A DNA stretch of 32,482 nt. It comes from Candidatus Aminicenantota bacterium (GTDB lineage: Bacteria; Acidobacteriota; Aminicenantia; Aminicenantales; UBA4085). Location of the stretch: contig JAUYDS010000030.1 of assembly GCA_030691735.1 (NCBI GenBank), positions 1 through 32,482 of the forward strand. Reading direction: 5' to 3'. Shown one piece after another: positions 5,129 through 30,955 of the stretch. How positions within the stretch are numbered: position 1 is the stretch's first letter; each line of letters begins with the position of its first letter. Made by a program: the position numbers and the translations under genes. The notes beneath the pieces were generated by a model. It was given only the letters and a program-made list of their open reading frames with translations. It searched no databases and was not told the DNA's origin.

Positions 5129-5294
5129 GTCATTACGAGCGATCGAAGGGCGCGCGGCAATCCGACCCAGAGGGTCGTCCTGAGCGAAGCGAAGGATCTC
5201 ATTCGACCTCGGACGAGCTTAGATGAGATCCCTCGAAAGACTCGGGACGACTCTTCGAGTCGGATCGCCACGTCGCTTCGCTCCTCGCGATGAC
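5129..5294. repeat. Long imperfect palindrome (GTCAT...ATGAC family), copy A
   Basis: Begins GTCATTACGAGCGA and ends CTCCTCGCGATGAC, with nested inverted segments (GGGTCGTCC / GGGACGACTC, GGATCTCAT / ATGAGATCC). Related blocks lie at 8567-8814 and 16844-16912. Blocks of this type, with GCGATGAC ends and GAGCGAAGCGA motifs, are known as dispersed repeats in many bacterial genomes. Here it fills the gap between miaA and hflX, and its end abuts the AAGGGA ribosome site of hflX. Confidence 0.8.
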
Positions 5295-5302
5295 AAGGGA
5301 AC

Positions 5303-8566: not shown

Positions 8567-8814
8567 GTCATCGCGAGGCACCGTAGGTGCCGAAATGCAC
8601 CGATCTTGTCATTGCGCGGCCGCGCAGCCGGCCGCGGCAATCCGACTCGAAGAGTCGTCCCGAGTCTTTCGAGGGATCTCATCCAGACTGATCGAGGTTG
8701 AATGAGATCCTTCGCTTCGCTCAGGACGACCCGTTGGGTCGGATCGCCACGGCATCTTCGATGCCTCGCGACGACTTCGTCGGATCACCGCGTCGCTCCG
8801 CTCCTCGTGATGAC
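8567..8814. repeat. Long imperfect palindrome (GTCAT...ATGAC family), copy B
   Basis: Begins GTCATCGCGAGGCACC and ends CTCCTCGTGATGAC. It shares long segments, inverted and direct, with copy A at 5129-5294, such as TCGAGGGATCTCATC and GGATCCTTCGCTTCGCTC-like stretches. A second GTCATTGCGCGG start lies within it at about 8607, so it looks like two units joined or one inserted in another. Confidence 0.75.
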
Positions 8815-8964: not shown

Positions 8965-9189
8965 GTCATTCGGGACTTGATCCGGAATCCAGTCTTATAA
9001 ACTGGATTCCCGCCTTCGCGGGAACGACGTCTGGATTCCCGCCTTCGCGGGAATGACGGGGAAAAAGCGCCATGCCCTTGTCATCCCCGCGGAGGCGGGG
9101 ATCCAGGTTACTTGCCGAACGGGCTGGATTCCCGCTCCCCACTTTCGTGGGGACAAGTTTACCCCTGCGAAGGCAGGGGCGGGAATGAC
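8965..9189. repeat. Cluster of short ATTCCCGCC-TTCG-GGCGGGAAT hairpin repeats
   Basis: Begins GTCATTCGGGACTTGATC and ends GGGAATGAC. It contains two close copies of the hairpin unit ATTCCCGCCTTCGCGGGAA (at about 9006 and 9036), a GTCATCCCCGCGGAGGCGGGG unit at about 9079 and degenerate units beyond. Such CGCCTTCGCGGG hairpin units with GATTCC/GGAATGAC flanks are common dispersed repeats in bacterial genomes. The surrounding stretch 8815-8964 holds nothing I recognise. Confidence 0.85.
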
Positions 9190-9326
9190 AGTTCCAGGAT
9201 TATTGTAAAGCCGATATTGAGACGCAACACGAGGAAAGCGCTTATTGCCAGGGCGAGGGGAAGAAGGCGCAGCGACCACAAGGAGAGCTCGCCGTTGCGG
9301 TTCGGTTTTTTCGGCGGACGATTCAT
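9159..9326 (-). CDS. Doubtful 55-residue ORF with one membrane segment
   Basis: ATG at 9326 opens a 55-codon frame, MNRPPKKPNRNGE, followed by a clear hydrophobic stretch (about residues 16-46, LLPLALAISAFLVLRLNIGF). Its last codons run into the hairpin repeat cluster at 8965-9189, so the 3' end may be altered. The segment encoding the first residues is the left arm of an inverted duplication (see 9298-9597). No ribosome site is obvious. It may be the remnant of a small membrane protein gene or chance. Confidence 0.25.
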   Translation of the reverse strand: MNRPPKKPNRNGELSLWSLRLLPLALAISAFLVLRLNIGFTIILELSFPPLPSQG

Positions 9327-9647: not shown

Positions 9648-11114
9648 TTACTCGATGCTCTTGTCGATGAACCCTTTGCGGAAGGTCATCCAGAGGATCT
9701 TGAGGTCGAGGGCGAAGGTCCAGTTCTGGATGTAGTAGAAATCGTGTTCCAGCCGTTTTTCGATGGACGTGCTTTGCCGCAGGCCGTGGACCTGGGCCCA
9801 GCCCGTGATCCCGGATTTGATCTTGTGGCGGAGCATGTACTTGGGGATCTTTTCGGTGAATTCCTTGACGAACTCGGGTCGCTCCGGCCGCGGCCCGACC
9901 AGGCTCATCTCCCCCTTGAAGACATTGACGAGCTGGGGCATCTCGTCGATGCTGTATTTCCGCAGGAACCGCCCGATCCAGGTGATCCGCGGATCGCAGG
10001 GCGCGGACATCACCGGGCCGGTGTCCTGTTCCGCGTCGCAGACCATGGTTCGCAGCTTGTGGATGATGAAACGCGCTCCGTCCATGCCCACCCGTTCCTG
10101 ATAGTAGAAGACCGGCCCCTTGGACGTCAGCTTGATGAGCGCGGTAAAGATCAGGAAGAAGGGGAAGAAAATGACGATTCCTAATCCCGAGAAGACGATG
10201 TCGGCCATTCTCTTTATAACCCGGCGCGCCCCTCGAAGCGGCACCTCGTCGATCGAGATGACCGGAAATCCGTCCAGGTCCTGAATGTTGGCTTTGAGCG
10301 TCAGGAGCTGGAAGAGGTCGGGAATGAGGCGGACTTTGACCGGATACTTGTTCACGATCTGGATGGTCTCGAGGATCTTCGAGTAATTGTTGAGATCCAG
10401 GGCGACATAGATCTCGTTGAGGTTATGGTCTTCGATGACCCGGGCGAGGTCCTCGATGCGGCCGAGAACCGGCAAGGTGGCGCCGTCGATCCAAATCTCT
10501 TCGCCGCTTTTCCGCTCGTTGTCCAGGAACCCTTTGACGACGAAGCCCAGGTCTTTGTACTGGTACAGCTTTTGGGCGACGGCCACGCCCATCTCCCCGG
10601 CGCCGACCACGAGCACGTTCTGAAGGTTCAGGCCCCGGGCGAAGCGCCGTTTCATGACGAAATAGATTTGGTGGCGGAAGATCGAAATGGCCAGGATGAC
10701 GCCGAAGAAATAAATGATCAGAAAGAACAAAGACGGCCGTTCTATCATGAAGCCGAAGGCGGCCGGACGGTGGCCGCGGCTGTAGCCGATGATCATGTTC
10801 AAGATGGCCATATCGGCCAAAATGGTCAGGACCGCGTTCAGGCTGACGAAGAAGAAATCGTCGAGCTTCGTCCGCCTCAAACGGCTCTTGTAAAAACCCT
10901 GGAAATAGAAGATCACCATGTGGGCGGCGATGAACAGGGGCAGGACGATGAGGTAGGAACCGAAGACGGGAACGCCCTTGGCCGGATCCACGGGGAACAG
11001 ATAGATGATGGTGTTGAAACGCAGAAAATAGGCCCAGACATAGGTCAGGATGATGGCGAAGATATCGCTGGCGATGAAGAGCCCGACCAGCCGGGCCCGT
11101 TTGCTGGTGATCAC
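9648..11114 (-). CDS. Undecaprenyl-phosphate sugar phosphotransferase, WbaP/WcaJ type
   Basis: 488-residue polyprenyl-phosphate hexose-1-phosphate transferase that would load the first sugar onto undecaprenyl phosphate for a surface polysaccharide. The N-terminal half has about four membrane helices and a Rossmann-like CoA-binding-type domain (NVLVVGAGEMGVAVAQ). The C-terminal bacterial sugar transferase domain shows KRMADIVFSG with the membrane hairpin, IHKLRTM, DEMPQLVNVFKGEMSLVGPRPERPEF and SGITGWAQVHG. The GTG at 11114 is preferred: it overlaps the upstream stop as GTGA and has AAGGAA 5 bases upstream; an ATG at 11138 is the alternative. It is co-transcribed with the preceding glycosyltransferase. 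The sugar (glucose or galactose) cannot be deduced. Confidence 0.93.
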   Translation of the reverse strand: MITSKRARLVGLFIASDIFAIILTYVWAYFLRFNTIIYLFPVDPAKGVPVFGSYLIVLPLFIAAHMVIFYFQGFYKSRLRRTKLDDFFFVSLNAVLTILADMAILNMIIGYSRGHRPAAFGFMIERPSLFFLIIYFFGVILAISIFRHQIYFVMKRRFARGLNLQNVLVVGAGEMGVAVAQKLYQYKDLGFVVKGFLDNERKSGEEIWIDGATLPVLGRIEDLARVIEDHNLNEIYVALDLNNYSKILETIQIVNKYPVKVRLIPDLFQLLTLKANIQDLDGFPVISIDEVPLRGARRVIKRMADIVFSGLGIVIFFPFFLIFTALIKLTSKGPVFYYQERVGMDGARFIIHKLRTMVCDAEQDTGPVMSAPCDPRITWIGRFLRKYSIDEMPQLVNVFKGEMSLVGPRPERPEFVKEFTEKIPKYMLRHKIKSGITGWAQVHGLRQSTSIEKRLEHDFYYIQNWTFALDLKILWMTFRKGFIDKSIE

Positions 11115-12229
11115 TGCGCTTCCTTGAACGCCCGCCATTTCTGACGGATCGACGTCCCGATCTTTTCTTTAAAAATGTCCCGCGAGAAACCCTGCGCGTG
11201 GGCGCGAAGAGTCGTTTTATTAAATTCCAGGCCCCGGAATTTGTCAAGGGCGGCCAGCAGACAGGCGGGCTTGAGCTCGTAGAAGAAAACCCCCGTTCTG
11301 TCCTCGACGACCGTTTCGAGGGAACCGCCCCGCCCATAGGCCACGACGGGTGTTCCGCAGGCCTGGGCTTCGAGCGTCGCGATGCCGAAATCCTCTTCGC
11401 CGGGCAGGACCAAAGTCCTCGCGCTCTGGTAGAGCCGGCGCAGGTCGCCGCCCTCCTGAGCTCCCAGAAATTCGACGTTCGGCCGGGCCAGCCGGCGCAG
11501 TTTCTTGAAGTCGGGCCCGTCGCCGACGATCTTGAGCGGCCATCCGAGCCGGTTGTAGCCCGCGATGGCCAGGTCGATCATCTTGTAAGGCACGAGCGCC
11601 GAGACGATAAGATCGAACCTCCTTTCCGGCTCGACGTCCGGCGGCCGGAAGAAGTCCGTGTCGACCGGGGGGTGGACGACGTCGGCCTGTCGCCGATAAT
11701 ATTTCTCCACCCTCCGGGCGACGCAGCGCGAGTTGGCGATGAAGTGGTCGACCCGGGCGGAGGAGGTTACGTCCCATTGCCGCAGATAATGGATGATCGG
11801 CGGAATGAGGAGATTCGGAAAGAAGGAGAGCTTTTCACGCGAGAAATAGGCGTGGTATTGGTTCCAGGCATAGCGCACCGGCGAGTGGATATACGAAACA
11901 TGGAGGGCGTCGGGATGAGGGATGATCCCCTTGGCGACGCAGTGCGAGCTGGAAACGACGAGATCATAGCGCTGAAGGTCGAAGAGCTCGGCGGCCAGCG
12001 GAAACAGGGGCAAGTACCAGCGATAGTGCTTTTTGAGGAACGGCATCCGCTGAAGGAAGCTTGTCCCGACGACCTTTTTCTCGATGTTTTCGATCTGGCT
12101 CCCGGCGAAGTGAAAGAGGGTATAGATGGGCGCGTCGGGAAAGACCTCGGCCAGGGCTTCCAGGACCTTTTCTCCTCCCCGCTGGCCGGTCAGCCAGTCA
12201 TGGACGAGGGCCACTTTGATGTTTTCCAT
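11111..12229 (-). CDS. GT4-family glycosyltransferase, WbaZ-like
   Basis: 372-residue GT-B enzyme, probably adding a sugar such as mannose from a nucleotide sugar to a lipid-linked oligosaccharide. The N-terminus KVALVHDWLTGQRGGEKVLE and the segment HVSYIHSPVRYAWNQYHAYF are characteristic of WbaZ/mannosyltransferase B-like proteins found beside initiating transferases. In the C-terminal lobe, the E-x7-E nucleotide-sugar motif is in GEEDFGIATLEAQACGTPVV. The gene directly precedes, and overlaps, the initiating transferase. Its ATG lies 3 bases from a palindromic element (12233-12338), with no Shine-Dalgarno site visible, so initiation may be weak or use the element's structure. Confidence 0.88.
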   Translation of the reverse strand: MENIKVALVHDWLTGQRGGEKVLEALAEVFPDAPIYTLFHFAGSQIENIEKKVVGTSFLQRMPFLKKHYRWYLPLFPLAAELFDLQRYDLVVSSSHCVAKGIIPHPDALHVSYIHSPVRYAWNQYHAYFSREKLSFFPNLLIPPIIHYLRQWDVTSSARVDHFIANSRCVARRVEKYYRRQADVVHPPVDTDFFRPPDVEPERRFDLIVSALVPYKMIDLAIAGYNRLGWPLKIVGDGPDFKKLRRLARPNVEFLGAQEGGDLRRLYQSARTLVLPGEEDFGIATLEAQACGTPVVAYGRGGSLETVVEDRTGVFFYELKPACLLAALDKFRGLEFNKTTLRAHAQGFSRDIFKEKIGTSIRQKWRAFKEAQ

Positions 12230-14450: not shown

Positions 14451-15599
14451 TTATTTTATCGTCTCCGCCAGCACCCGCTCGATCCCTTCGATCTGCCGGG
14501 CGATCGAGAATTTCTCTCGGACCGTCTTCCATCCTCCTTCGACCGCCAGGCGGACTTCAACGGGATTCAGGAAGAGGTGTTCCAGAGCCAGGGCGATCTC
14601 TTTGGGTTCCCGGGAATCGATGAGGAAGCCGTTCCGGCCGTGTTGGATGATCTCGGGCAATCCCCCCGCCCGGACGGCCAGCACGGGCACGCCGGCGGCC
14701 ATCCCATCCAGGGCCGCCCGGCCGAACGACTCGACGACCGAGGCCACGATCAAGACGTTCATGACCTTCAAGATATCGACCAGGTCGGGATGATAGCCGA
14801 CGAAGAGAACCCGGCCCTCGAGTCCGTTCTCTCTGACGATCTTCCGGAGACCGTCATAATACCCTTCCTTCCGGACCTCTCCGACAACGAGCAATTTCAG
14901 GTTCGGATATTTCCCGGAAAGCGCCGCCACGGCCAGGATCGCTTCCCGCTGCCCTTTTCCCTCATAGATCTTCCCGACGATGCCGGCGACAAGATCGTCC
15001 GCCGCGATCCCGAGATCCCTCCGGATGGAACTCTGCCGGCCTTCGTCGCCGGCCTGGATGTCGACTCCATTATGGATCAGGATCACGTTTTCGGCGCCCG
15101 CAAAGGCGGCCCTGGTGATCTCCGAATTGACGATGACGCGGACCGAGCTTTTGACGATGTATCTCGTCAGCGCCCGGCCTCCGAACAGATAACGAAGAAA
15201 GGGGCTCGGTCCCCGAAGGACCTCATGGATGGCCCAAACGTGGGGGATCCCCATTCTCCGGGCGGCCTTCGCGCCTGTGTTCATCGCCGCCGAATTCGTG
15301 AAGACCAGGTCGATCGACCTCTCGCGGATGATCGCCGCGATCTTCTTGACGCTTTTCAGGTTCCAGATCCAAGCGAACGGCTGCCGCCAAATCCGCGATC
15401 TTTCGGTGATCCACCATTTCATGGAAACGACGAAGGTTTCGAGACCCAGATCCGCGGCGGCATCCAGGAGAGGCCCCGGCCGGGGGACGATCAAAAACGG
15501 CGCATAGGACCGCCGGTCGAGACGTTTCAACGTCTCGAGCAACCACAGCTCCGCGCCGTTGAGCTCGGCGGAATGGGAGATGAACAGGATGTTCTTCAT
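14451..15599 (-). CDS. GT4-family glycosyltransferase
   Basis: 382-residue GT-B glycosyltransferase. The acceptor lobe starts ILFISHSAELNGAELWLLETL, a common WcaI/Rfa-type opening, with LVFTNSAAMNTGAKAARRMG further on. The donor lobe holds VAGIVGKIYEGKGQREAILA, then the conserved glutamates in VVESFGRAALDGMAAGVPVLAV; the second E-x7-E position is Asp here (ESFGRAALD), a conservative change seen in some members. The start overlaps the stop of the first gene of the operon by 4 bases. Substrates unknown. Confidence 0.88.
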   Translation of the reverse strand: MKNILFISHSAELNGAELWLLETLKRLDRRSYAPFLIVPRPGPLLDAAADLGLETFVVSMKWWITERSRIWRQPFAWIWNLKSVKKIAAIIRERSIDLVFTNSAAMNTGAKAARRMGIPHVWAIHEVLRGPSPFLRYLFGGRALTRYIVKSSVRVIVNSEITRAAFAGAENVILIHNGVDIQAGDEGRQSSIRRDLGIAADDLVAGIVGKIYEGKGQREAILAVAALSGKYPNLKLLVVGEVRKEGYYDGLRKIVRENGLEGRVLFVGYHPDLVDILKVMNVLIVASVVESFGRAALDGMAAGVPVLAVRAGGLPEIIQHGRNGFLIDSREPKEIALALEHLFLNPVEVRLAVEGGWKTVREKFSIARQIEGIERVLAETIK

Positions 15600-16795
15600 C
15601 GCCCCCTCAGGATCTGGCGATAGAAGGACAAGGTCTCCCGGGCCGTCTTTTGCCAGGTGAACGCCTTAGCCCGCTCCCGGCCCTTGGCTTGGAGCGATGC
15701 CCTCAATCGAGCATCTCCGAGGATCAGAATGATCTTGGCCGCCATGTCCTCGACGTTTTCAGGATCAAAATAGACCGCGGCGTCTCCCCCGATCTCGGGC
15801 AGGGCGGAAACGCCCGAGGCCGCGACCGGGAGGCCGCAGGCCATCGCTTCGAGGAGGGGTAGGCCGAAGCCCTCGCAATAGGACGGAAAAACGAGGGCCG
15901 AAGCGGCCTGATAGAGGTCCCGGATATCGGGATCGGGCAGATAGCCGAGCAACCTGATCCAGCGCTCCATGCCCCGGAAACGGATTCTGTCCAGGAGGGT
16001 CGCCTGATCCGCGCCTGCCCGGCCGACGAGCACGAGCGGGATCTTCGCGTATCGCTTGTGGACGACGGCCAGGGCATCGATCAGCCGGGGCAGATTCTTC
16101 CGGGGTTCGGAGGCGCCCACGAAGAGAAGAAAACCTTCGGGCAGATCGAACTTCCGGCGGGCCGCGTCAAGGGACGAGCCTTCGCGGCGAAAGTGGACCC
16201 CCGGGTAAAGCCCGGGGCCCCGGCCGCCGTCGACGGCTCCGGCACCGGCCGGCTCCTTGAAAATATCGTTCAATCCGAGATAGGTCACCTTGATCCGTTC
16301 GTCTCCGATTCCGAAGCGATCGATGAGAGCTTTTTTCGTGAACTCCGAGATCGTCACGATCCCATCGGCCTTGCGGAGAGACGACTCGGCCCGTTTTAAA
16401 AAATATCTTCTCGCCTCTTTATCGGCCCGGCCGGGGAAGTCCATGAAGAAAAGGTCGCAGACGGTGACGATCTTTTTCCCCGCCGTGGGAAGAATGAGCG
16501 GGGTCGGTGAATGGGTCAGGTCCAATCGCGTCCCGAAGATCGTGTCGAGCCGCGGCCGGCCGAGCTTGTACCAGGCGAAATTGACGCCCTTCACCGGCCA
16601 GCGAAGATCGCGAAACCGCCGGTTCTTGAACGGCGGAAGCTTGGCCGCGGGAAAGCGGTCCTTCCAAGAAGACGAAAAAAGGACGTATTCATTGTCGGCG
16701 TCGATGCGGGCCAACTCGAAGAGAAGATTCTTGAAATAGACCCCGACGCCTGTCTCTTCCCGAAGAAAGGAGCGAAGATCGAACCCGATGCGCAT
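15596..16795 (-). CDS. GT4-family glycosyltransferase with an in-frame palindromic element
   Basis: 399-residue GT-B enzyme, first gene of the polysaccharide operon. The N-terminal lobe opens MRIGFDLRSFLREETGVGVY and includes ADGIVTISEFTKKAL; the C-terminal lobe has FVGASEPRKNLPRLIDAL and the E-x7-E motif in SYCEGFGLPLLEAMACGLPVAA, as in mannosyltransferases of the WbaZ/MtfB type. Residues 189-210 are encoded entirely by a 66-base palindromic element (GGRGPGLYPGVHF...), placed between the two lobes just before the first strand of the donor domain. The reading frame is intact through it. The ATG at 16795 is chosen because upstream codons fall in a promoter and a dispersed repeat. Confidence 0.88.
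   Translation of the reverse strand: MRIGFDLRSFLREETGVGVYFKNLLFELARIDADNEYVLFSSSWKDRFPAAKLPPFKNRRFRDLRWPVKGVNFAWYKLGRPRLDTIFGTRLDLTHSPTPLILPTAGKKIVTVCDLFFMDFPGRADKEARRYFLKRAESSLRKADGIVTISEFTKKALIDRFGIGDERIKVTYLGLNDIFKEPAGAGAVDGGRGPGLYPGVHFRREGSSLDAARRKFDLPEGFLLFVGASEPRKNLPRLIDALAVVHKRYAKIPLVLVGRAGADQATLLDRIRFRGMERWIRLLGYLPDPDIRDLYQAASALVFPSYCEGFGLPLLEAMACGLPVAASGVSALPEIGGDAAVYFDPENVEDMAAKIILILGDARLRASLQAKGRERAKAFTWQKTARETLSFYRQILRGR
16166..16231 (+). repeat. Palindromic element, copy 3 (short form, 66 bp) inside a gene
   Basis: Short form: it keeps GTCAAGGGACGAGCCTTCG and the CCCCGGG/CCCGGGG hairpin to CCGGCCGCCGTC, but lacks the central hairpin of about 39 bases. At 66 bases (22 codons) it is read in frame on the minus strand by the glycosyltransferase gene. 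Confidence 0.9.
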
Positions 16796-16803
16796 AGGGG
16801 CTA

Positions 16804-16833
16804 AATGTATGCCGGGACCCTCACAAAAGTCAA
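16804..16833 (-). promoter_or_regulatory. Promoter of the polysaccharide operon, possibly leaderless
   Basis: On the minus strand TTGACT (16833-16828) and TACATT (16809-16804) are 18 bases apart. Eight bases separate the -10 from the ATG at 16795, and no Shine-Dalgarno site is present, so the transcript would start one to three bases before the start codon. Confidence 0.55.
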
Positions 16834-16843
16834 CTTGGGGCCT

Positions 16844-16912
16844 GTCATCGCGAGGAGCGAAGCGACGTGGCGATCTCATAGACCCTCGCGAGCATCACGC
16901 GAGGACGATGAC
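16844..16912. repeat. Palindrome (GTCAT...ATGAC family), copy C, short
   Basis: Begins GTCATCGCGAGGAGCGAAG and ends CGCGAGGACGATGAC, a 69-base relative of the blocks at 5129 and 8567. It lies between the divergent polysaccharide operon and the M20 peptidase gene. Confidence 0.75.
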
Positions 16913-17008: not shown

Positions 17009-18235
17009 ATGTCCTTTGATAAGATCTTTCAGCGCATTGATTCCTATCGCAACGACATGATCGACCTTCAGATCAAGTTGGCCTCCATTCCGGCCATCTC
17101 CCCCTCGAGCGGGGGCGAAGGCGAGGCCAAAAAGGCCGAATTCCTGGTCAAGTTCCTCCAGGCGAACGGTTTCGTGGACGTCGAGGTCATCAAAGCCCCC
17201 GACATGGACGCCCCCGCGGGCTACCGCCCCAACATCCTCGCTTATTACCGCGGGAAAAGCCCGGCCAAGACGATCTGGGTCATGAGCCATACGGATGTCG
17301 TTCCGCCGGGCGAGCTTTCGCTCTGGCGCGACGATCCCTTCCGGCCCTGGGTCGAGGCCGGGAAGATCTTCGGCCGCGGTGTCGAAGATAATCAGCAGGA
17401 CTTGGTCGCCTCGATCTTCGCCGTCAAAGCCTTCCATGCCCTGGGCCTCAAGCCCAATTATGACATCGGCCTGGCCCTTGTCGCCGATGAAGAGACGGGC
17501 AGCGACAAGGGGATCGCCTACGTTCTCAAGCATTCGAAGGCCTTCCGCCATAAGGACCTGATCCTCGTCCCCGACGCCGGCAACGAGGACGGAACGATGA
17601 TCGAGATCGCCGAGAAGAGCATCCTCTGGCTGAAGTTCAAGACGCTCGGAAAGCAGGCCCACGGCTCCACGCCGGAGAAGGGCATCAACGCCTTCAAGGC
17701 CGCTTCGTTCCTGATCACGGAGCTCGACAAGCTGTATGAGATCTTTCCCCACAGCGACCCGGTCTTCGACCCGCCCATCTCCACGTTCGAGCCGACCAAG
17801 AAAGAGGCCAACGTCCCCAACATCAATACCATCCCGGGCGAGGACATTTTCTACATGGACAGCCGGATCCTACCCAAGTACAAGGTCGAAGAGGCCGAGG
17901 CCCGGATTCGGGAGATCGTGGCCGGGATCGAGAAGCGGTTCAAGGTCAAGATCACCATCGAAGAGCACCAGAAGGCCCCCGCCGCTCCCCCGACTCCGGT
18001 CAACGCGCCCGTCGTCAAGGCGTTGGAGAAGGCCATCAAGGCGGTCTACGGCAAGGACGGCAGGGCCATGGGCATCGGCGGCGGGACGGTTGCGGCCCTT
18101 TTCCGGAGGGAAGGTTTCGAGGCGGCCTGCTGGTCGCGCCTCGACGAAACGGCCCATCAGCCCAACGAGTACTGCATCATCGACAACATGGTCGGCGACG
18201 CCAAGGTCTTCGCCCATATTTTCTTGCAGGAATAA
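17009..18235 (+). CDS. M20-family metallopeptidase (ArgE/DapE/dipeptidase group)
   Basis: 408-residue cytoplasmic zinc peptidase or deacylase. Metal ligands and catalytic residues are all in place: H94 and D96 in SHTDVV, bridging D127 in GRGVEDNQQ, the catalytic pair E161-E162 in ADEETGS, D189 in VPDAGNEDG and a C-terminal His in ETAHQPNEY. The dimerisation lid is inserted between (about 203-320, with KQAHGSTPEKGINAFKAA). The architecture is that of M20 dipeptidases and carboxypeptidases; the exact substrate is not deducible. The start is firm: AAGGAG at 16996-17001, seven bases before the ATG. There is no signal peptide. It stands alone, converging with the deacetylase-like gene. Confidence 0.9.
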   Translation: MSFDKIFQRIDSYRNDMIDLQIKLASIPAISPSSGGEGEAKKAEFLVKFLQANGFVDVEVIKAPDMDAPAGYRPNILAYYRGKSPAKTIWVMSHTDVVPPGELSLWRDDPFRPWVEAGKIFGRGVEDNQQDLVASIFAVKAFHALGLKPNYDIGLALVADEETGSDKGIAYVLKHSKAFRHKDLILVPDAGNEDGTMIEIAEKSILWLKFKTLGKQAHGSTPEKGINAFKAASFLITELDKLYEIFPHSDPVFDPPISTFEPTKKEANVPNINTIPGEDIFYMDSRILPKYKVEEAEARIREIVAGIEKRFKVKITIEEHQKAPAAPPTPVNAPVVKALEKAIKAVYGKDGRAMGIGGGTVAALFRREGFEAACWSRLDETAHQPNEYCIIDNMVGDAKVFAHIFLQE

Positions 18236-18238: not shown

Positions 18239-18398
18239 GAGACGTAGGGGTCGCGTCTACACTTTCCACTTTTTCCCCAAACGATCTCGGTCAAGAGACG
18301 TAGGGGTCGCGTCTACACTTTCCACTTTTTCCCCAAACGATCTCGGTCAAAATCCATAACATTAAAAGGATAAAAGTGGAAAGTGTAGACGCGACCCC
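18239..18398. repeat. Exact 56-bp tandem duplication plus an inverted partial copy
   Basis: Two identical 56-base units (18239-18294 and 18295-18350) start GAGACGTAGGGGTCGCG and end CGATCTCGGTCAA. A 27-base inverted copy of their core lies at 18372-18398, so unit 2 and this copy can form a perfect 27-pair stem (18303-18329 with 18372-18398). The block sits exactly between two converging genes and could act as a two-way terminator. It looks like a REP/REPIN-type element; no spacers or transposase are present. Confidence 0.9.
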
Positions 18399-19655: not shown

Positions 19656-19718
19656 ACCGCGTTCTTGCGGACTGACACCCGGAAAGTGAACCTCAAGCAT
19701 GCCAGCCAGGAGGCTTTA

Positions 19719-21929
19719 TTGAGATCGTACCGCATCGACAAGCACCCTATCCTGAGCCCGCCCACCGCAGAGACTATCGATTTTTTTTGGAAAGGCCGGA
19801 AGCTCCTCGCCAAGAAGGGCGAGACGATCTCTTCCGCCCTCTTCGCCCATGGCCAGAGAATATTCAGCTATCATTATAAGGACCACGCGCCCCAAGGCAT
19901 TTTCTGCGCCAACGGCCAATGCGCCCAATGCCTGGTCCTGGCCGACGGACTTCCGGTCAAAGCCTGCATGGAGCTCGTCCGCCCGGGGATAAGGGTCGAG
20001 CCTGTGGACGGCCTTCCCGAGCTCCCGCGCCTTTCCGCATCCCCGCGCCTCGGCCCCGTCGAGGAGATCGCCGTCGCCGTCCTGATCATCGGCGGCGGGC
20101 CGGCCGGATTGTCGGCGGCCATCGAGCTCGGCAAGCTCGGCATCGAAACGCTCCTCGTGGACGACAAGCATCGGTTGGGCGGCAAGCTCGTCCTCCAGAC
20201 CCATCGCTTCTTCGGCTCTGCCGACATGGTCTACGCGGGCACGCGCGGCATCGACATCGCCACGAAGCTCGAGGCCGAGCTGCGCGCGTTCTCCAGCGTC
20301 CGCGTCTGGCTCCAGAGCGCGGCCCTGGCCGTCTTCAGCGACCGGAGGGTCGGTATCCTGGCCGAAGGCCGGCGCTACGCGCTGGTCCGGCCGCAGGCGC
20401 TCCTCGTGACCGCGGGCGCCCGGGAAAAATCCCTCGCTTTCCAGGGGAACACCCTGCCCGGCGTCTACGGCGCCGGCGCTTTCCAGACGATCGTCAACCG
20501 GGACCTGGTCCGCTCGTCCGAGAAACTATTCATCGTCGGCGGGGGCAATGTCGGGCTCATCGCCGGTTATCATGCCCTTCAGGCCGGGATCCCCGTCGTC
20601 GGCCTCGTCGAGGCCCTCCCCGAATGCAGCGGTTACAAGGTCCACAGAGACAAGCTGGCCCGGTTCGGCGTGCCCATCTATACGTCGCATACCATCCTGA
20701 GCGCCAACGGTCAGGACTCGGTCGAATCGGTGACGATCGCCCGGCTCGACGAGAAGTGGAAACCCGTCCCCGGCAGCGAGCGCTCTTTCGCCTGCGACAC
20801 CATCCTCATCGCCATCGGCCTCGACCCGGTCAACGAGTTTTACGACAAAGGGCGGGAATTCGGCATGGCGACGTTCGCCGCCGGCGACGCCGAGGAGATC
20901 GCCGAAGCGTCCGCGGCCATCTTCTCCGGAAAGATCAAGGGGCTCGAGGTCGCCCGATCCTTGGGCACCGACGTCGGCGAGATCAAAAAGGAATGGTATG
21001 AAACGGCCGAGATCCTCAAATCGAAGCCGGGCCGGACCGAAGCGGAGACCTATCCGGCGGACGAAAGCGGCGTTTTCCCGCTTCTCCACTGCGTCCAGGA
21101 GATCCCCTGCGATCCGTGCACGACGGTCTGCAAGCAGGACCTCATCCATATCCATTCCTCGGACATCCGCTGCCTGCCCGTCTTCGAGGTCAAGGACGGC
21201 GCCAAGGGCTGCACGGGCTGCGAGAAATGCGTCACGATCTGCCCCGGGCTGGCCATCTCGCTGGTCGATTACCGGAAGGACCCGGAATTTCCGACCGTAA
21301 CGCTCCCCTATGAGTTCATGAAAGACAGCATCGAGGTCGGCGACATCATCACCGTCCTCGACACCGAAGGCAACGCCCTCGCCGACGTCGAGGTCATCGG
21401 CGTCCGGGCGGTCAAGGTCAACGACCGGACGGTGCTCGTCAAGCTCAAAACGCCGCGCGCCGTGGCCAAGAAGGTCGCCGGTCTGCGGATCCAGGACGGC
21501 CAAGTCACAAAACCCATGGCCCGCTACGTCAAGGGACGAGCCTTCGACTCGCCACTCGCCCGTGGCGTGTATCCACGGGCGAGTACGGCGGAAGTGGACC
21601 CCCGGGCAAAGCCCGGGGCCCCGGCCGCCGTCGAGCGCCTGGCCGATGACACGATCATCTGCCGCTGCGAACGGGTGACGGCCGGCGAGATCCGGGATCT
21701 GGTCCGTCAAGGCTACCGTGACATCAATGAGATCAAGGCGGTGACCCGGGCCTGCATGGGTTCGTGCGGCGCCAAGACGTGCACGCCGCTCATCCACCGT
21801 CTGTTCCGCGAAGAAGGGATCGCGGAAAAAGATATCGTGGACCAGCCCAAGAGGCCGCTGTTCATGGAGGTCCCGCTCGGCACCTTCGCCGGCTGCGACG
21901 AAACAGAAGAGGCGGACCATGGCCGATAA
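19719..21929 (+). CDS. Multi-cluster Fe-S/FAD oxidoreductase (sarcosine oxidase/proline dehydrogenase alpha-like) with an in-frame repeat
   Basis: 736 residues. Start TTG 19719 is set by AGGAGG at 19708-19713. Domains: a [2Fe-2S] ferredoxin-like domain (about 15-100; C63, C68, C71, C83), a pyridine-nucleotide-disulfide FAD/NAD module (about 120-430; GGGPAG 125-130; second Rossmann loop FIVGGGNVG), a ferredoxin-type region with CDPCTTVC and CTGCEKCVTICPG (about 455-515), and a BFD-like [2Fe-2S] domain (about 643-700; CRC and CMGSCGAKTC). The order fits alpha subunits of heteromeric sarcosine oxidase, hydroxyproline/proline dehydrogenase and HcnB, here joined with small subunits usually encoded separately. 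Residues 604-638 come from the palindromic element, in the linker before the BFD domain. It overlaps the next gene by 11 bases; the two would pass electrons from an amino-acid substrate to NAD or another carrier. Confidence 0.85.
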   Translation: MRSYRIDKHPILSPPTAETIDFFWKGRKLLAKKGETISSALFAHGQRIFSYHYKDHAPQGIFCANGQCAQCLVLADGLPVKACMELVRPGIRVEPVDGLPELPRLSASPRLGPVEEIAVAVLIIGGGPAGLSAAIELGKLGIETLLVDDKHRLGGKLVLQTHRFFGSADMVYAGTRGIDIATKLEAELRAFSSVRVWLQSAALAVFSDRRVGILAEGRRYALVRPQALLVTAGAREKSLAFQGNTLPGVYGAGAFQTIVNRDLVRSSEKLFIVGGGNVGLIAGYHALQAGIPVVGLVEALPECSGYKVHRDKLARFGVPIYTSHTILSANGQDSVESVTIARLDEKWKPVPGSERSFACDTILIAIGLDPVNEFYDKGREFGMATFAAGDAEEIAEASAAIFSGKIKGLEVARSLGTDVGEIKKEWYETAEILKSKPGRTEAETYPADESGVFPLLHCVQEIPCDPCTTVCKQDLIHIHSSDIRCLPVFEVKDGAKGCTGCEKCVTICPGLAISLVDYRKDPEFPTVTLPYEFMKDSIEVGDIITVLDTEGNALADVEVIGVRAVKVNDRTVLVKLKTPRAVAKKVAGLRIQDGQVTKPMARYVKGRAFDSPLARGVYPRASTAEVDPRAKPGAPAAVERLADDTIICRCERVTAGEIRDLVRQGYRDINEIKAVTRACMGSCGAKTCTPLIHRLFREEGIAEKDIVDQPKRPLFMEVPLGTFAGCDETEEADHGR
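21528..21632 (+). repeat. Palindromic element, copy 4 (long form, 105 bp) inside a gene
   Basis: Starts exactly at a codon boundary (GTC) and spans 35 codons in the plus-strand frame, reading VKGRAFDSPLARG ... KPGAPAAV. It lies between the [4Fe-4S] and BFD-like [2Fe-2S] domains of the oxidoreductase. All three hairpins of the element are retained, one with a G-to-A change (CTTCGACTC). Confidence 0.95.
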
Positions 21930-24431: not shown

Positions 24432-24460
24432 AAGATAAAGGAATCCGGCCGGGATGTCAA
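24432..24460 (-). promoter_or_regulatory. Promoter of pcnB
   Basis: On the minus strand TTGACA (24460-24455) and TATCTT (24437-24432) are 17 bases apart, giving a leader of about 47 bases. It lies back to back with the promoter of the dipeptidyl peptidase gene. Confidence 0.55.
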
Positions 24461-24478
24461 AACGGGCTCCGCCGCTTC

Positions 24479-24507
24479 TTGATAATGACGGCCAATCTTC
24501 ATATAAT
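24479..24507 (+). promoter_or_regulatory. Strong promoter of the dipeptidyl peptidase gene
   Basis: TTGATA (24479-24484), a 17-base spacer and a perfect TATAAT (24502-24507). The predicted start near 24514 leaves a leader of about 27 bases that includes GGAGG at 24528-24532. Confidence 0.75.
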
Positions 24508-24540
24508 TTCTCCATTATTCTCTTCGTGGAGGTCAGGACA

Positions 24541-26640
24541 TTGAAGAAACGTCATGCGATCGCCCTGAAACGGGGCCTGGTCGTCGCGTTCGTGATCCTG
24601 TTCGGCGTGATCACGGGGATTTCGAACGCGCAGGACCGTCTCAAGACATATCCGGGGTACGACCAGTACCAGAAGATGACCAAGGAGATGCAGGGCGCGG
24701 CCAAGCTCGGCACGCTCCGCGTGACCTGGAAGGACGGCGGGAAAGCCTTCGAATATACGAAGGACGGCAAGGTCTACCGCTTCGACGTCGGCTCGAAGAA
24801 AACGACCGAGATCGGCGCCGCGCCGGCTCCGATCAAACCGGAGGGCATGGGCCGGCCCGGCGGCGGTCCCGCCCGCGGGCGGCAGTTCACCGAAGCGGTC
24901 TCTCCTGATAAGAAGTTCAAAGCGTTCTATCGCGACCGCAACCTCTGGCTGAGCGACGCCGACGGCAAGAACGAGGCTGCGGTCACGACGGAGGGCAACG
25001 AAAAAGCCCGCATCAAGTACGGGACCGCCAGCTGGGTCTACGGCGAGGAACTGAACCAGAACACGGCCATTTGGTGGTCGCCGGACAGCGCCAAGCTCGC
25101 CTTCTACCGTTTCGACGAGAGCAAGGTGCCCGACTATATCTTGCAGATGAACCAGACCAAGCTGTACACGACAGCCGATATCGAGGCCTATCCGAAGGCG
25201 GGCGAGCCGAACCCCATCGAGGACATCTTCATCTACGACCTGGCGGCAAAGAAGACGACTCAAATCGACATCCGCGACGGCAAGCCGTTCGACAACGACG
25301 TCATCGGCCATTACGCCTACCGCGTCTCCTGGTCGCCCGACGGCAAGGAGCTCCTCTTCAACCGGACCAACCGCCGCCAGAACATCCTGGAGTTCACGGC
25401 CGCCGCCCCGGCCACGGGCAAGTGCCGGGTGATCCTCCGCGAGGAATGGCCGACCGGCTGGGTCGAGAATTCTCCGCCGATGCAGTATCTCAAGGACAAC
25501 AAGAGGTTCCTCTGGACCTCGGAACGCTCGGGGTTCCGGAACCTCTACCTCTACGACCTGAGCGGCAAGCTCCTGGCGACGTTGACGAACCATCCCTTCG
25601 AGGTCGCCAACGTCGTCCGCATCGACGAAGCCGGCGGTTTTCTTTATTACCTGGCCCGCGACGGGGCGAATCCGATGATGATGCAGTTCCACCGGGTCAA
25701 GCTCAACGGCAAGAAGGCCGTCCGCCTGACCGATCCGGCTTATAATCACTCGGTCGACCTCTCGCCGGACGGCAAATATTTCATCGACGTCGCTCAGACG
25801 CATGACATCCCGCCCTTCACCCGGCTGTTGGACGCCAAGGGCAAAGTCGCGGCCGAGCTGGCCAAGAGCGACTTGACCAAGTTCGACCAGCTCGGGCTGA
25901 AAAAGACCGAGCTGTTCAAGTTCAAATCCGCCGACGGCAGCCGCGATCTCTACGGCATCCTCAACGTCCCGTCCAACTTTGATCCGGCCAAAAAATACCC
26001 CCTGCTCGTGAGCGTTTACGCCGGCCCGGGCTGGAACGGCGCGCGGGAGACCTTCTCCACGCCCAGCACTCTCACCGAATACGGCTTCCTCGTGGCCTCG
26101 TTCGACACGCGAGGTTCATCCGGATCGGGCAAGCGAGCGATGGACGCCATCTACCAGCACCTGGGCGTCGTCGAAATGGACGACCAGGCGGCGGGCGTGA
26201 AATCCCTCTGGGACCGGCCCTACCTGAACAAGGAGCGCGTCGGCATCTTCGGGACGTCTTATGGCGGCTATGCCTCGACGATGTGCCTGCTCCGTCATCC
26301 TGACGTGTTCGCGGCCGCCTGCGCCCAATCCGCGGTCACTTCCTGGAACCAGTACGACAGCATCTACACCGAGCGCTATATGTGGATCCCGCAGGAGAAT
26401 AAGGAAGGCTATGAAGCCGGAAGCGCCATGAAATATGCCAAGGACCTCAAAGGCCGGCTGCTGCTCTATTACGGAACGGCCGATAACAACGTCCATCCGA
26501 CCAACGCCATGCAGCTCATCCAGGCGCTCCAGGCCGCCGGAAAGAGCTTCGAGGTCCAGGTCGGCCCGGACCTGGGCCATTCCGGCCTCAATCAGAACCG
26601 GATGATGGAGTTCTTCATCGAGAATCTCGTTTTGAGATGA
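24541..26640 (+). CDS. Dipeptidyl peptidase IV (S9 family), exported
   Basis: 699-residue serine peptidase that would release X-Pro or X-Ala dipeptides from peptide N-termini. Start TTG 24541 is supported by GGAGG eight bases upstream and by a promoter lying over the possible N-terminal extension. The signal peptide is residues 1 to about 31 (KKRHAIALKRGLVVAFVILF ... SNA). The N-terminal beta-propeller (about 50-460) contains WVYGEEL, the Glu-Glu motif that binds the substrate amino group in DPP-IV. The C-terminal alpha/beta hydrolase domain has the nucleophile S573 in GTSYGGY, D648 in TADNNVH and H680 in LGHSG. The protein is complete and should act in the periplasm or at the cell surface. 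It is transcribed divergently from pcnB. Confidence 0.93.
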   Translation: MKKRHAIALKRGLVVAFVILFGVITGISNAQDRLKTYPGYDQYQKMTKEMQGAAKLGTLRVTWKDGGKAFEYTKDGKVYRFDVGSKKTTEIGAAPAPIKPEGMGRPGGGPARGRQFTEAVSPDKKFKAFYRDRNLWLSDADGKNEAAVTTEGNEKARIKYGTASWVYGEELNQNTAIWWSPDSAKLAFYRFDESKVPDYILQMNQTKLYTTADIEAYPKAGEPNPIEDIFIYDLAAKKTTQIDIRDGKPFDNDVIGHYAYRVSWSPDGKELLFNRTNRRQNILEFTAAAPATGKCRVILREEWPTGWVENSPPMQYLKDNKRFLWTSERSGFRNLYLYDLSGKLLATLTNHPFEVANVVRIDEAGGFLYYLARDGANPMMMQFHRVKLNGKKAVRLTDPAYNHSVDLSPDGKYFIDVAQTHDIPPFTRLLDAKGKVAAELAKSDLTKFDQLGLKKTELFKFKSADGSRDLYGILNVPSNFDPAKKYPLLVSVYAGPGWNGARETFSTPSTLTEYGFLVASFDTRGSSGSGKRAMDAIYQHLGVVEMDDQAAGVKSLWDRPYLNKERVGIFGTSYGGYASTMCLLRHPDVFAAACAQSAVTSWNQYDSIYTERYMWIPQENKEGYEAGSAMKYAKDLKGRLLLYYGTADNNVHPTNAMQLIQALQAAGKSFEVQVGPDLGHSGLNQNRMMEFFIENLVLR

Positions 26641-26660: not shown

Positions 26661-26696
26661 ATCCGGTGACACACACGAACGTATGTGTCACCGGAT
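26661..26696. repeat. Hairpin after the dipeptidyl peptidase gene
   Basis: Arms ATCCGGTGACACACAC and GTATGTGTCACCGGAT (26661-26676/26681-26696), 16 pairs with one mismatch and a 4-base loop, 20 bases after the stop codon. No T-tract follows. The GACACATAC-like core resembles that of the palindromes at 19486 and 23084. Terminator or REP-like unit. Confidence 0.75.
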
Positions 26697-26733: not shown

Positions 26734-26877
26734 GTCAAGGGACGAGCCTTCGCGGCGGAAGTGGACCCCCGGGTAAAACCCGGGGCACTCACCCGCGATG
26801 TAAATACGCGGCTGAGCACGGCGGAAGCGGATCCCCAGACAAAGCCTGGGGCCCCTGCCGCCGCCCCGGCCGCCGTC
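26734..26877 (+). repeat. Palindromic element, copy 5 (composite, 144 bp)
   Basis: Begins as the short form (GTCAAGGGACGAGCCTTCGCGG, then the CCCCGGG/CCCGGGG hairpin), continues with a diverged central hairpin (ACCCGCGATG ... CGCGGCTGAG) and a second diverged third hairpin (CCCCAG ... CTGGGG), and ends CCGGCCGCCGTC. It therefore looks like two element halves joined. It is intergenic, but its 144 bases are open in the usual frame on both strands. It lies immediately upstream of the amidase gene and may have displaced that gene's promoter, as none is visible. Confidence 0.85.
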
Positions 26878-26914
26878 GAGCAGCGCCTTGGCCAACTACG
26901 GCGCCATACGAGGC

Positions 26915-29599
26915 ATGAGAAAAAGAAGATCATTTTCGGCGGCGGTCCTTCTCATCGGTTTGACCCTGGTTCTCATTTCGTCCTGCGCCGAGCGGCCGCC
27001 CATCGCCCATTCCGTCCAACCCGGCCCCTTCCCCGTGGTCGAGACGACCATCGCCGAAATTCATAAGGCCATGAAAGACGGGCGTCTCACGGCACGCGCC
27101 CTCGTCCAGGCTTACCTCGCGCGGATCGAGGCCTACGACCAGCCGAGCGGCCTGAACGCGATCGTCGTCATCAACCCGGCGGCGCTCGCGACCGCGGACG
27201 CTCTCGACGCCGAGTTCAGAAGAACAAAAAAACTGCGGCCACTGCACGGCATTCCGGTCATCGTCAAGGACAATTACGACACGGCCGACCTGCCGACGAC
27301 GGCCGGGTCGCTCGCCTTGAAAGGCTCGGTCCCGCCTGACGACGCCTTCCAGGTTCGAAAGCTCCGCGAAGCGGGCGCCATCATCCTGGCCAAGTCCAAC
27401 ATGGCCGAATGGGCCTTCAGCCCGTATCTGACGGAAAGTTCGATCGCCGGGGTGACCCGGAATCCGTATGACCTCGAACGCGTCCCGGCGGGTTCGAGCG
27501 GAGGGACAGCCGCTTCGATCGCCGCCTCCTTCGGCGCGGTCGGCCTCGGCACGGACACCGGGAATTCGATCCGCGGGCCGTCTTCGCACTGCGCCCTGGT
27601 CGGGATCCGCTCGACGATGGGCTTGACCAGCCGCGACGGGATCGCTCCGCTTTACCTGCGCAACGACGTCGGCGGCCCCATGGCCAGGACGATCGAGGAC
27701 GCGGTCCGCGTGCTCGAGGCGATCGCCGGCCCCGACCCGGCCGACCCGATCACCGAGATGAGCCGCGGCAAGATCCCGAAAAGCTACCTCCCCTTCCTGG
27801 ACAAGAACGGCCTCAAGGGCGCGCGGATCGGCGTTTTCCGGACGTTCATCGAGACCAAGACGGCCGATCCTCAGATCAAGGCCCTGGTTGAAAAGGCCGT
27901 CGCCGATATGAAAGCCCAGGGCGCCGAGATCGTCGATCCGTTCGTCATCCCGGATTTCGAAGCCCTGACCAAGAGCTTGTGGTGCGACATGTTCAAGCAC
28001 GACGTGGAAGCCTACCTGGCCTCGCGCGGACCGACCGCACCGTTCCATACGCTGGCCGATATCGTCAGATCCGGGCTGTACGTTCCGGCCAATGAACGCC
28101 GGCTGAAGCAGGCGCTGGCCGCGGACGAGAAGGAGACCGCCAAGTGCCTCGATCTCTATCACGACCCGCGGAACATCAAGTTCCGCGAGGCGGTCCTCAA
28201 GGCCATGGCCGAGCGGAAAGTCGACGCCTTCATCTATCCGACATGGAGCAACCCGCCGCGGAAGATCGGGGATATGGAGAGCCCGGCCGGCGACAACAGC
28301 CAGATCATCCCGCCGCATACAGGCCTGCCCGGTTTCAACATCCCCATGGGATTCACCTACGGGAACCTGCCTGCAGGCCTTCAGATCGTGGGGAAACTGT
28401 TCGGCGAGCCGGAGCTGATCAGGATCGCCTACTCCTATGAACAGACGACGAAACACCGCCGCCCCCCCGAGCGTTTTCCGGAACTCGGCGAAGGCCGCGG
28501 AACGAAAGCGGATGCGGAGCCGAGTCCCTTCACGCTCGAACTCCAAAAGTCCCCGGTTGAAACGAGCTTCCGCGCTCTCCGCGCCGTCTCATCATCGGCC
28601 GCTTGGGCAAGCGGGAGCCGCGGCGCGATCTGCAGGACGACGGACGGCGGAAAGACATGGGAGTCCGTCCTTGTCCCGGGCGGCGACAAACTCGATTTCC
28701 GTATGCTGGCCGCCTTCGACGCCGATCGCGCCCTCGTCGCCAACGCCGGAAGTCCGGGCTTCATATACAAAACGACGGACGGCGGAAAGAACTGGAAAAC
28801 CGTCCTCCGCGACGACCGGCCGGGCTTCTTCATCGACGCCCTGGTCTTCTGGGACGACAAGCGCGGCCTTGCCATCGGCGACCCGATCGATGGCGCGTTC
28901 CTCGCTCTGGCGACAGAGGACGGCGGAGAGACATGGCGGCCTCTGCCTAAGGACCGCCTGCCCGCGCCGCTCAAGGGCGAAGCGTTTTTCGCCGCCAGCA
29001 ACAGCTCTTTGGCCGTCCAAGGCCGGACGCTCGTTTGGTTGGGCAGCGGCGGCGGGCCGGCCTCGCGCGTCTTCGCCAGCCTGGACTCGGGGAGGTCTTT
29101 TCGCCCGGCCCCGGCGCCCGTCACGGCCGGGATGTCAACACGAGGAATCTTCGGCCTCGCCTTTCGGACCCCCCGAGAGGGTTTCGCCGTCGGCGGTGAT
29201 TACCGGGAGATGGATTTCCGCGACGGCATCGCCGCCGCGACGCACGACGGCGGTGAAACGTGGCAGCCGCTCGGCCCGGCAGGAGTGTCGGGCTTCCGGG
29301 AGGGCGTGGCCTTCGTCCCCAACCGGTCGTGGGTTCTGGCCGTCGGGCCGGGGGGCAGCGACGAGTCGCTCGACAACGGCCGGACCTGGCGCCCTTTCGC
29401 CCTCGACAGCTGTCACGTCGTCGCTTTCGCCCCGGACGGCAAGTTCGGCTGGGCGGCCGGCAACAAAGGCAAGATAGTCCGGATAGCTGTCAAGGGACGA
29501 GCCTTCGGCTCGCCACTCGCCCGTGGCTTAAATACACGGGCGAGTACGGCGGAAGTGGACCCCCGGGTAAAACCCGGGGCCCCGGCCGCTGTGAAGTGA
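26915..29599 (+). CDS. Lipoprotein amidase fused to BNR/Ycf48-like repeats
   Basis: 894 residues. A lipoprotein signal ([15 protein letters not shown] ... LISSC) precedes an amidase-signature domain (about 40-530) with the full triad: K118 in VKDNYD, cis-Ser S195 in GSSGG and nucleophile S218 in DTGNSIRGP. Such enzymes hydrolyse amides, peptides or amidated glycans. An Asp/Pro-rich link leads to a beta-propeller-like region (about 550-858) of BNR/Ycf48-type repeats, with [32 protein letters not shown] and [10 protein letters not shown]. Residues 859-893 are encoded by a copy of the palindromic element, one codon before the stop, so the natural C-terminus has been replaced or extended. ATG 26915 is preferred because the lipoprotein signal follows at once; TTG 26888 is possible. 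The ribosome site is weak. Confidence 0.85.
29489..29593 (+). repeat. Palindromic element, copy 6 (long form, 105 bp) at a gene's 3' end
   Basis: In frame from a GTC codon, 35 codons reading [13 protein letters not shown] ... KPGAPAAV, followed only by AAG and TGA. Same phase as the copy in the Fe-S oxidoreductase at 21528. Confidence 0.95.
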
Positions 29600-29627
29600 A
29601 AGGGGGACACTGTGCTACGTCCCCCTT
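29600..29627. terminator. Hairpin between converging amidase and MaoC genes
   Basis: AAGGGGGAC (29600-29608) and GTCCCCCTT (29619-29627) form a perfect 9-pair stem with a 10-base loop, starting directly after the amidase stop. An AT-rich stretch follows on the plus side. Likely a two-way terminator; it also resembles the GGGGACA hairpins at 19417. Confidence 0.6.
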
Positions 29628-29646
29628 ATACCCCTTATAAATACCC

Positions 29647-30105
29647 TTACAAATAAACCAGCACAAGCAGTTCGGCCAGGACCGCCGGCTCTTCGTTTCC
29701 TTCGATCTCCAGATAGTTCTCGATCTTGAGCAGAATCTTCCTGAACCCCCGTTTCCGGATCTCCCTGAGGACGGCCCGGTTGCGGACACGGGCGCCGGAG
29801 GGGACCGGAGTGATGAAGCGGACCTTGTCTAAGCCGTAGTTGGCGGCCATTTTGTATTTCATCTGAAGAAGCGGGATCACTTTGAGGAAATGGGGAAGGA
29901 GCGACAACATCAGAAAGCCGTGGGCGACCGTGCCTCCTAGTCGGCTCTTGGCCGCTTTCTCCGGATCGACATGGATCCATTGACGATCCTCGGTACACTC
30001 GGCGAAAGCGTCGATCCGCTCCTGGCCGACGACGAACCAGTCCGAGACCCCGATCTCCTTATCGACGAAGGCCTTCAATTTCCTCGGCGTCAACCGTTCG
30101 GGCAT
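29647..30105 (-). CDS. MaoC-like (R)-hydratase, hot-dog fold
   Basis: 152-residue MaoC-type dehydratase or (R)-specific enoyl-CoA hydratase. IDAFAECTEDRQWIHVDPEKA carries the catalytic Asp/His hydratase motif, followed by GGTVAHGFLMLSLLPHF, typical of PhaJ-like single hot-dog proteins. The remaining VRFITPVPSGARVRNRAVLREI strands fit the fold. The ATG at 30105 is chosen, with AGGA nine bases upstream; an in-frame ATG at 30144 would add 13 residues that look like leader sequence. It stands alone and is transcribed towards the amidase gene. It may act in fatty-acid or acyl-CoA breakdown; the exact acyl chain is unknown. Confidence 0.85.
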   Translation of the reverse strand: MPERLTPRKLKAFVDKEIGVSDWFVVGQERIDAFAECTEDRQWIHVDPEKAAKSRLGGTVAHGFLMLSLLPHFLKVIPLLQMKYKMAANYGLDKVRFITPVPSGARVRNRAVLREIRKRGFRKILLKIENYLEIEGNEEPAVLAELLVLVYL

Positions 30106-30299: not shown

Positions 30300-30557
30300 A
30301 TGAGCCGAACGACAAAAACGATGACCGTGTCGCTTCCCCCTCAAATTTATAAAAAAGTGGTGGAGATGGCCATCTTTGAACACAAAACGAAAAGTGAGCT
30401 CTTCCGCGATATGATCGCCGTCTATGAAAGCCACCTTCTTGAGACACGTTGGCGAAGGGTGAGAGAGATGGGCCGGGAGATCGCCGAGGATTTCAGCATC
30501 AAGTCGGAAGAGGATGTCGAGAACATCATCCACGAGTTCAGACAATCCAAGAAATAG
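30300..30557 (+). CDS. Ribbon-helix-helix antitoxin
   Basis: 85 residues. The N-terminal segment TKTMTVSLPPQIYKKVVEMA followed by HKTKSELFRDMIAVYE is a CopG/Arc-type ribbon-helix-helix DNA-binding domain. The C-terminal helices (about 45-85, acidic, KSEEDVENIIHEFRQ) would wrap the toxin. GGAGG at 30288-30292, seven bases before the ATG at 30300, fixes the start. The PIN toxin gene follows two bases after its stop. It should neutralise that toxin and repress the operon. Confidence 0.87.
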   Translation: MSRTTKTMTVSLPPQIYKKVVEMAIFEHKTKSELFRDMIAVYESHLLETRWRRVREMGREIAEDFSIKSEEDVENIIHEFRQSKK

Positions 30558-30559
30558 AA

Positions 30560-30955
30560 GTGAGCCGAGTCGTTCTTGATACCGATGTCCTCCTCTCGGC
30601 CATCCTCCATGGAGGGAATCCTGAACGAGTTTTAAGATCGGCCTGGGAAGGAAAAATCCAGTTGCTCTCGTCACCGGCCCTTTTGATGGAGCTCGTGAAT
30701 GTATTAAAAATGAAATTTCCCTGCGATCAGGAAGCCATTCGAAAAGCCGTCCAAATCATCGGCTATTCGGCCGACCTGATCAAGCCCGTCCATCGGATCC
30801 GCGTCCTAGACGATGATCCTGACAACAGGGTTTTGGAATGCGCCGTCGAAGGCCGGGCGAACTACATCGTCTCGGGAGACGGTCATCTCCTCGCGCTCGA
30901 GGAATATCAGAAAATGCCCATTCTGAAACCGGCGGCGCTTCTTTCCCGACTATGA
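30560..30955 (+). CDS. PIN-domain ribonuclease toxin
   Basis: 131 residues from GTG 30560, two bases after the antitoxin stop. It is a complete PIN domain of the putative-toxin group (COG1569-like). The acidic metal-binding residues are present: the first Asp in VVLDTDVLLSA, Glu in LLMELVNVLK, Asp in LDDDPDNRVLECA and Asp in IVSGDGHLL. Such proteins cut tRNA or other RNA when freed from the antitoxin. No Shine-Dalgarno site precedes the GTG except a weak GAAG, so translation is probably coupled to the antitoxin, which would keep toxin levels low. Confidence 0.9.
   Translation: MSRVVLDTDVLLSAILHGGNPERVLRSAWEGKIQLLSSPALLMELVNVLKMKFPCDQEAIRKAVQIIGYSADLIKPVHRIRVLDDDPDNRVLECAVEGRANYIVSGDGHLLALEEYQKMPILKPAALLSRL

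Follow-up and report, generated by a model that had tools for sequence, protein, structure and literature searches.

A hairpin-rich interspersed repeat as the probable source of the C-terminal tail of an amidase-BNR protein in a Candidatus Aminicenantota genome

The repeat at the 3' end of the amidase-BNR gene

A gene for a putative amidase-BNR lipoprotein, carried on a 32,482-nt stretch of contig JAUYDS010000030.1 from a Candidatus Aminicenantota bacterium (the whole stretch analysed, here called the window), ends in DNA that recurs elsewhere in the window. Does the protein take its C-terminus from the repeat, or does it still end at its own stop codon behind inserted sequence? An earlier note on this DNA had placed repeat sequence in the open reading frame at 29489-29593; those limits were reproduced exactly, and the DNA belongs to a repeat family. 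The features of the gene are listed here.

26888-29599, plus strand: open reading frame of the putative amidase-BNR lipoprotein, 903 residues (open reading frame list and Pfam)
29489-29592, plus strand: repeat element, 104-nt form with one GT counted at each end, adding 102 nt net, or 34 codons (flank divergence among copies, and empty sites of other copies)
29495-29514, plus strand: hairpin 1 of this copy (fold)
29515-29545, plus strand: hairpin 2, whose stem is perfect over 11 bp in the fold; it belongs to the 39-nt module missing from the short form
29561-29579, plus strand: hairpin 3 (CCCCGGG/CCCGGGG), nested in an outer stem at 29546-29592 (fold)
29591-29599, plus strand: probable native 3' end of the amidase gene, GTG AAG TGA (V, K, stop), which would have been reused after insertion (net-insertion rule, gene call on element-removed sequence and homologue C-termini)

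ATG 26915 was judged the likelier start of the gene (start and lipobox assessed by eye). Residues 72-510 were assigned by Pfam to Amidase (PF01425, 4.9e-96) and residues 551-646 to a BNR/YCF48-type propeller. The fusion of the two was found only in G000, the genome holding the window, and in G001, a second genome of the same genus; in the other relatives, from a set of 59 genomes, just one of the two parts was matched, either the amidase or the BNR. At its 3' end the reading frame runs to KGKIVRIA, passes through 35 repeat-encoded residues (29489-29593, 35 codons) and closes with K and TGA. As single-stranded DNA the amidase copy folded into three hairpins, with z = -5.9 against shuffled sequences (0/200); folding of the 65-nt form at 16166 was similar to that of many shuffles (z = -1.3).

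The repeat family and its insertion rule

The window carries six copies, which in the 104-nt comparison share 61-92% identity with the reference copy. Besides the one in the amidase gene they are as follows.

8-110, plus strand: 103-nt copy at the contig start
12233-12337, plus strand: 105-nt copy just upstream of the glycosyltransferase open reading frame 11111-12229 (minus strand)
16166-16230, plus strand: 65-nt short form, in frame in a glycosyltransferase gene (15596-16879, minus strand); site empty in G001
21528-21631, plus strand: 104-nt copy, in frame in an Fe-S/pyridine nucleotide oxidoreductase gene (19665-21929); site empty in G001
26734-26876, plus strand: 143-nt compound form in the gap that separates 24454-26640 from the amidase gene

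The earlier note had called the amidase tail the same sequence as the insert in the Fe-S oxidoreductase. The two are close, at 92% DNA identity, but not identical, with 29/34 encoded residues (85%) in agreement. The window also holds other interspersed repeat families (5129-5295, 8633-8775, 16843-16875 and ~9000-9280), of TCATCGCGAGGAGCGAAGCGAC and ATTCCCGC..GCGGGAAT types, which resemble CGTC REPs; a perfect 56-nt tandem duplication at 18239-18350, downstream of the peptidase-like open reading frame 17009-18235; and, at 30300-30955, two small overlapping open reading frames that by eye resemble a ribbon-helix-helix antitoxin and PIN toxin pair.

Genome-wide copies were counted by searching for the repeat's right half as a pattern with up to 3 mismatches, the reversed pattern serving as control. 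This gave 63 + 85 = 148 matches in G000 and 36 + 24 = 60 in G001, and 0 in either genome for the reversed pattern, so the family is not a product of chance. Copies have in common the left end GTCAAGGGACGAGCCTTC and the right end CCCCGGCCGCCGT, and their outer flanks differ save for a [CG]GA preference on the right. Usual block lengths are 65, 104, 143 and 182 nt, that is, 39-nt steps, and an extra 37-nt hairpin gives more forms. This hairpin lies inside hairpin 3 of some copies (L168:220, L183, L188, L210 and L265) and alters the length by a non-multiple of three; copies with it are mostly outside gene interiors, and one of 204 nt net (L188) is interior. Some copies are nested in other copies, at their AA-GT-GGACC.

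Within the order, matches were obtained in 11/94 genomes: seven from the window's own family, three from one genus of another family and one, weak, from a third family. The spread is patchy, with non-carriers between carriers. No match to Rfam at the gathering score was found in 29000-30000, and the element had none among plasmid or phage records.

To what extent insertion follows a rule was read from sites that lack the element in the other genome. Left ends numbered 115 in G000 and 56 in G001; for 15 and 13 of them, respectively, both flanks were matched close together in fetched stretches of the other genome, and the 19 sites with a gap of ≤40 nt were compared base by base between the two. 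All were element-free in the other genome except L191:9650, which was occupied in both. Ten of the 18 empty sites were clean by eye (window 21527 and 16165, L191:15049, L186, L196, L200, L183, L259, L262 and L279), and in each of these the gain equalled the block length minus one GT. Net gains for the common forms are therefore 63, 102, 141 and 180 nt, each divisible by three. The dinucleotide at the clean empty sites was GT in 7/10 and CT or AT in 3/10, with GT on both sides of the inserted copies. The target was likely GT, changed later in the other lineage at the CT and AT sites, although the rule is unproven to the base. The element is short and high in copy number and inserts precisely, with an apparent 2-bp GT duplication that is equally readable as a single GT owned by the element.

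The native end of the gene

Removal of the net length at the amidase site by the empty-site rule leaves GCT GTG AAG TGA and a protein ending in ...RIAVK. A gene call on the element-removed sequence likewise ended the gene at GTG AAG TGA, 9 nt past the insertion point. The element itself opens GTC AAG (VK), so the ...RIAVK end is rebuilt ahead of the tail.

BNR homologues were collected by script from 26 loci, and 18 closed proteins aligned within 3 residues of position 866. Of these, 17 stop 2-8 residues later and one stops 24 later. In this comparison of C-termini, a good indirect test of the native end, none of the 18 carries the repeat peptide. The remaining 8 loci comprised G001 twice (open; L032 and L087), L092, L093, L099, L100 and L119, which align only further upstream, and L047, a poor match. 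A separate BNR alignment consisted of nine proteins. The orthologue in G001 is 89% identical over the BNR region, and its contig ends 14 codons before the insertion site; the gene downstream of the amidase was not found in that genome, and G001 was accordingly dropped as direct proof of an empty amidase site. In an AlphaFold2 model (mean pLDDT 85.8) the last strand is formed by model residues 324-329, VRIAVK, and pLDDT falls below 50 at residues 335-364, by which the tail is predicted to be disordered.

It is very likely, on these grounds, that the repeat entered the gene at a GT, two codons ahead of the amidase-BNR stop, keeping the frame, adding a disordered 34-residue tail and reusing the native stop. 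The pre-insertion site at the amidase gene itself would be the one reconstructed from the rule and the homologue ends. Because net removal gives RIAVK and a stop, and homologues end 2-8 residues on without a tail, the present stop is most likely the native one pushed 102 nt downstream, and the element adds to the protein rather than replacing its end. The earlier note was thus borne out in attributing a new C-terminal tail of the protein to an inserted repeat; homologues lack this tail both at their C-termini and in the alignment. It had also held that the native stop appeared displaced and that the element supplies the C-terminus; by the net-insertion rule the final V, K and TGA would instead be native.

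That latter reading, in which the gene ended right after RIA, the element supplied the end and VK-stop is a chance read-through into the flank, accounts for the in-frame tail and stop, and there is precedent in the near-stop copies elsewhere, 6/13 of which have the stop inside the element (L177, L222, L223, L224, L255 and L261). However, the empty-site rule leaves GTG AAG TGA in frame, and 17/18 homologues end 2-8 residues past that point, not at it, which makes this reading improbable. Nothing was found in favour of the tail being a conserved native C-terminus whose sequence spread later to give the repeat similarity. The tail is absent from all 18 end-aligned homologues, and the sequence is present ~148 times in unrelated contexts; a native conserved C-terminus was ruled out by the homologue ends, and we give it practically no credence.

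As to the preferred reading, insertion ahead of a native stop, the interspersed repeat would be non-autonomous, rich in hairpins and of the Rickettsia-palindromic-element kind, and would have entered the GT two codons ahead of the amidase stop. It would have brought 102 nt (34 codons) that preserve the frame and have no stop in it, so that the tail would hang past the last BNR-propeller strand and the protein would terminate at its own native stop. Survival of the insertion may be explained by the element's neutrality to frame and its lack of stops in most frames, and by a C-terminal extension being harmless. Judging from the sequence, the tail would be translated. Transposition is the presumed cause of the amidase copy, and the insertion was presumably neutral.

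Copies in other genes and comparison with known repeats

Behaviour in genes was followed across both genomes. A home-made codon-pair model was used to call genes after removal of the elements, in stretches chosen for holding copies. This gene finder over-extends some starts, for example that of the amidase, which it placed at 26666, across the 26734-26876 copy; near-start cases were therefore set apart as 'N-term ambiguous' (8 in G000, 4 in G001). There were 98 blocks placed in G000 and 53 in G001, and those within 120 nt of a stretch end were left out of the percentages (19 in G000, e.g. L165, L166, L167, L172 and L238, and 1 in G001). Assembly breaks seem to fall at the element, and copy number is probably underestimated.

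In G000, 22 blocks were interior and 39 intergenic, while 10 lay within 60 nt of a stop and 8 near a start; the corresponding counts in G001 were 11, 34, 3 and 4. About half of the copies are thus intergenic, a strong over-representation against random points (11.3% and 8.8% intergenic). Net length was divisible by three in 33/33 interior copies (22 in G000, 11 in G001) vs 52/73 intergenic ones (Fisher p = 1.6e-4), and no interior copy (0/33) introduces a stop into its host open reading frame. Since copies are over-represented between genes and the interior ones are all frame-keeping and stop-free, most genic insertions have probably been purged. Near-stop copies showed some excess in G000 (10/79 vs 4.9%, p = 0.005) and none in G001 (3/52, p = 0.74). 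The 13 comprise six that, like the amidase copy, add a peptide in frame ahead of the retained native stop, six with a stop lying in the element itself and one that ends at a different stop; two of the six that keep the native stop are in small open reading frames (83 and 96 aa) that may be non-genes. Ten host proteins were searched with Pfam and nine had a family, including amidohydrolases, an ABC ATPase and glycosyltransferases. In G001 the NAD-dependent DNA ligase LigA (L279:13214-15448), the product of an essential gene, holds a 180-nt compound copy that keeps the frame and lies near residue 185, in the region of the adenylation domain; this site is empty in G000.

Such copies could be taken to mean that the element is a selected peptide module, its stop-free frame and 39-nt steps maintained to add a useful peptide, with a functional amidase tail (e.g. 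in anchoring or binding). The net lengths of the main forms (63, 102, 141 and 180 nt) agree with this, as do the LigA copy and the finding that frame +1 is open in 32/32 intergenic 104-nt copies, the consensus being open in 5/6 frames. Against it, about half of the copies are intergenic vs ~9-11% of random points, which implies removal of most genic insertions; genic copies occur in several frames and in both orientations and thus favour no one peptide; closeness to the consensus is no greater for interior copies than for intergenic ones (0.968 vs 0.978); and the amidase tail is disordered by prediction. The preference of genic copies for one phase is the one already shown by the GT[CG]GA target, 82% of whose sense sites in genes are in phase 0, and was ruled out as a sign of coding selection. 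A selected module is accordingly very improbable. The peptide itself is probably not selected, and the element is compatible with coding by its make-up.

A mobiliser was sought among transposase genes. Y1_Tnp genes were present in 10/11 genomes searched. Within ~1.5 kb to either side, the 20 Y1 loci that were fetched had no element, by which a RAYT/Y1 transposase as neighbouring mobiliser was ruled out. A remnant beside a partial left end at L173, which we take to be an IS91-like C-terminal remnant, was considered as the parent element and dropped, as its flanks are absent from every other fetched stretch. No transposase was linked to the repeat family, and no parent transposase was found.

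By analogy, the element appears closest in kind to the Rickettsia palindromic elements (RPEs) and to intragenic REPs. RPEs are interspersed palindromic repeats lying in frame in many unrelated protein genes, where they add tens of residues and are apparently tolerated (PMC10969869; PMC3733652). The present element, likened to them by behaviour, is also palindromic and in frame in unrelated genes without stops. The likeness extends to 18 sites, ten of them clean, at which the other genome has no element; for the amidase gene this point is drawn from homologue ends. It differs from RPEs in belonging to another phylum, in its abundance between genes as well, its occurrence in both orientations and several frames, its modular 39-nt step and its GT-centred target.

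GTAG and CGTC REPs are described as 20-40 bp stem-loops with that tetranucleotide tag, the CGTC ones with a CCA-like tail; a CGTC REP is defined there by the CGTC tag, one 8-9 bp stem opening with AT pairs and the CCA-like tail, and 'slightly more than 10%' of REPs in open reading frames are placed at coding-region ends (PMC3733652). The element resembles intragenic REPs of these classes as a short stem-loop repeat that is chiefly intergenic with some copies in open reading frames, but it is mostly 65-182 nt long, forms three hairpins in the 104-nt form and has neither tag arrangement. Starting GTCAAGG, ending CCGCCGT and having three hairpins, it was rejected as a CGTC REP; a GTAG REP with RAYT was rejected for want of a GTAG terminus and of any element near Y1_Tnp loci. 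A MITE was likewise rejected, the ends CAAGGGACGAGCC / GGGGCCCCGGCCGCC not being inverted repeats of each other by eye. A literature search for Aminicenantes with palindromic or MITE-type repeats, within the one library searched, returned no title or abstract describing the element.

For annotation, tails or inserts of the type 'VKGRAF...VDPR.KPGAPAA' or 'GGRGPGL.PGVHFRREGSSLD' in these proteins should be read as repeat-derived and not as domains. The two genomes of the same genus, with 18 sites element-free in one of them, are a well-resolved data set for measuring insertion rules and purging. A more speculative and rather doubtful suggestion is that the family is a frame-neutral genomic parasite, which its 39-nt steps and the 5/6 stop-free frames of its consensus allow to sit in genes in either orientation, even in LigA of G001. 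It would then steadily supply the proteome of the lineage with new disordered peptides and new C-terminal tails, some of which might be kept for use. With this finding, the invasion of genes in frame by palindromic repeats, for which Rickettsia is the best-known case, is extended to an uncultured phylum.
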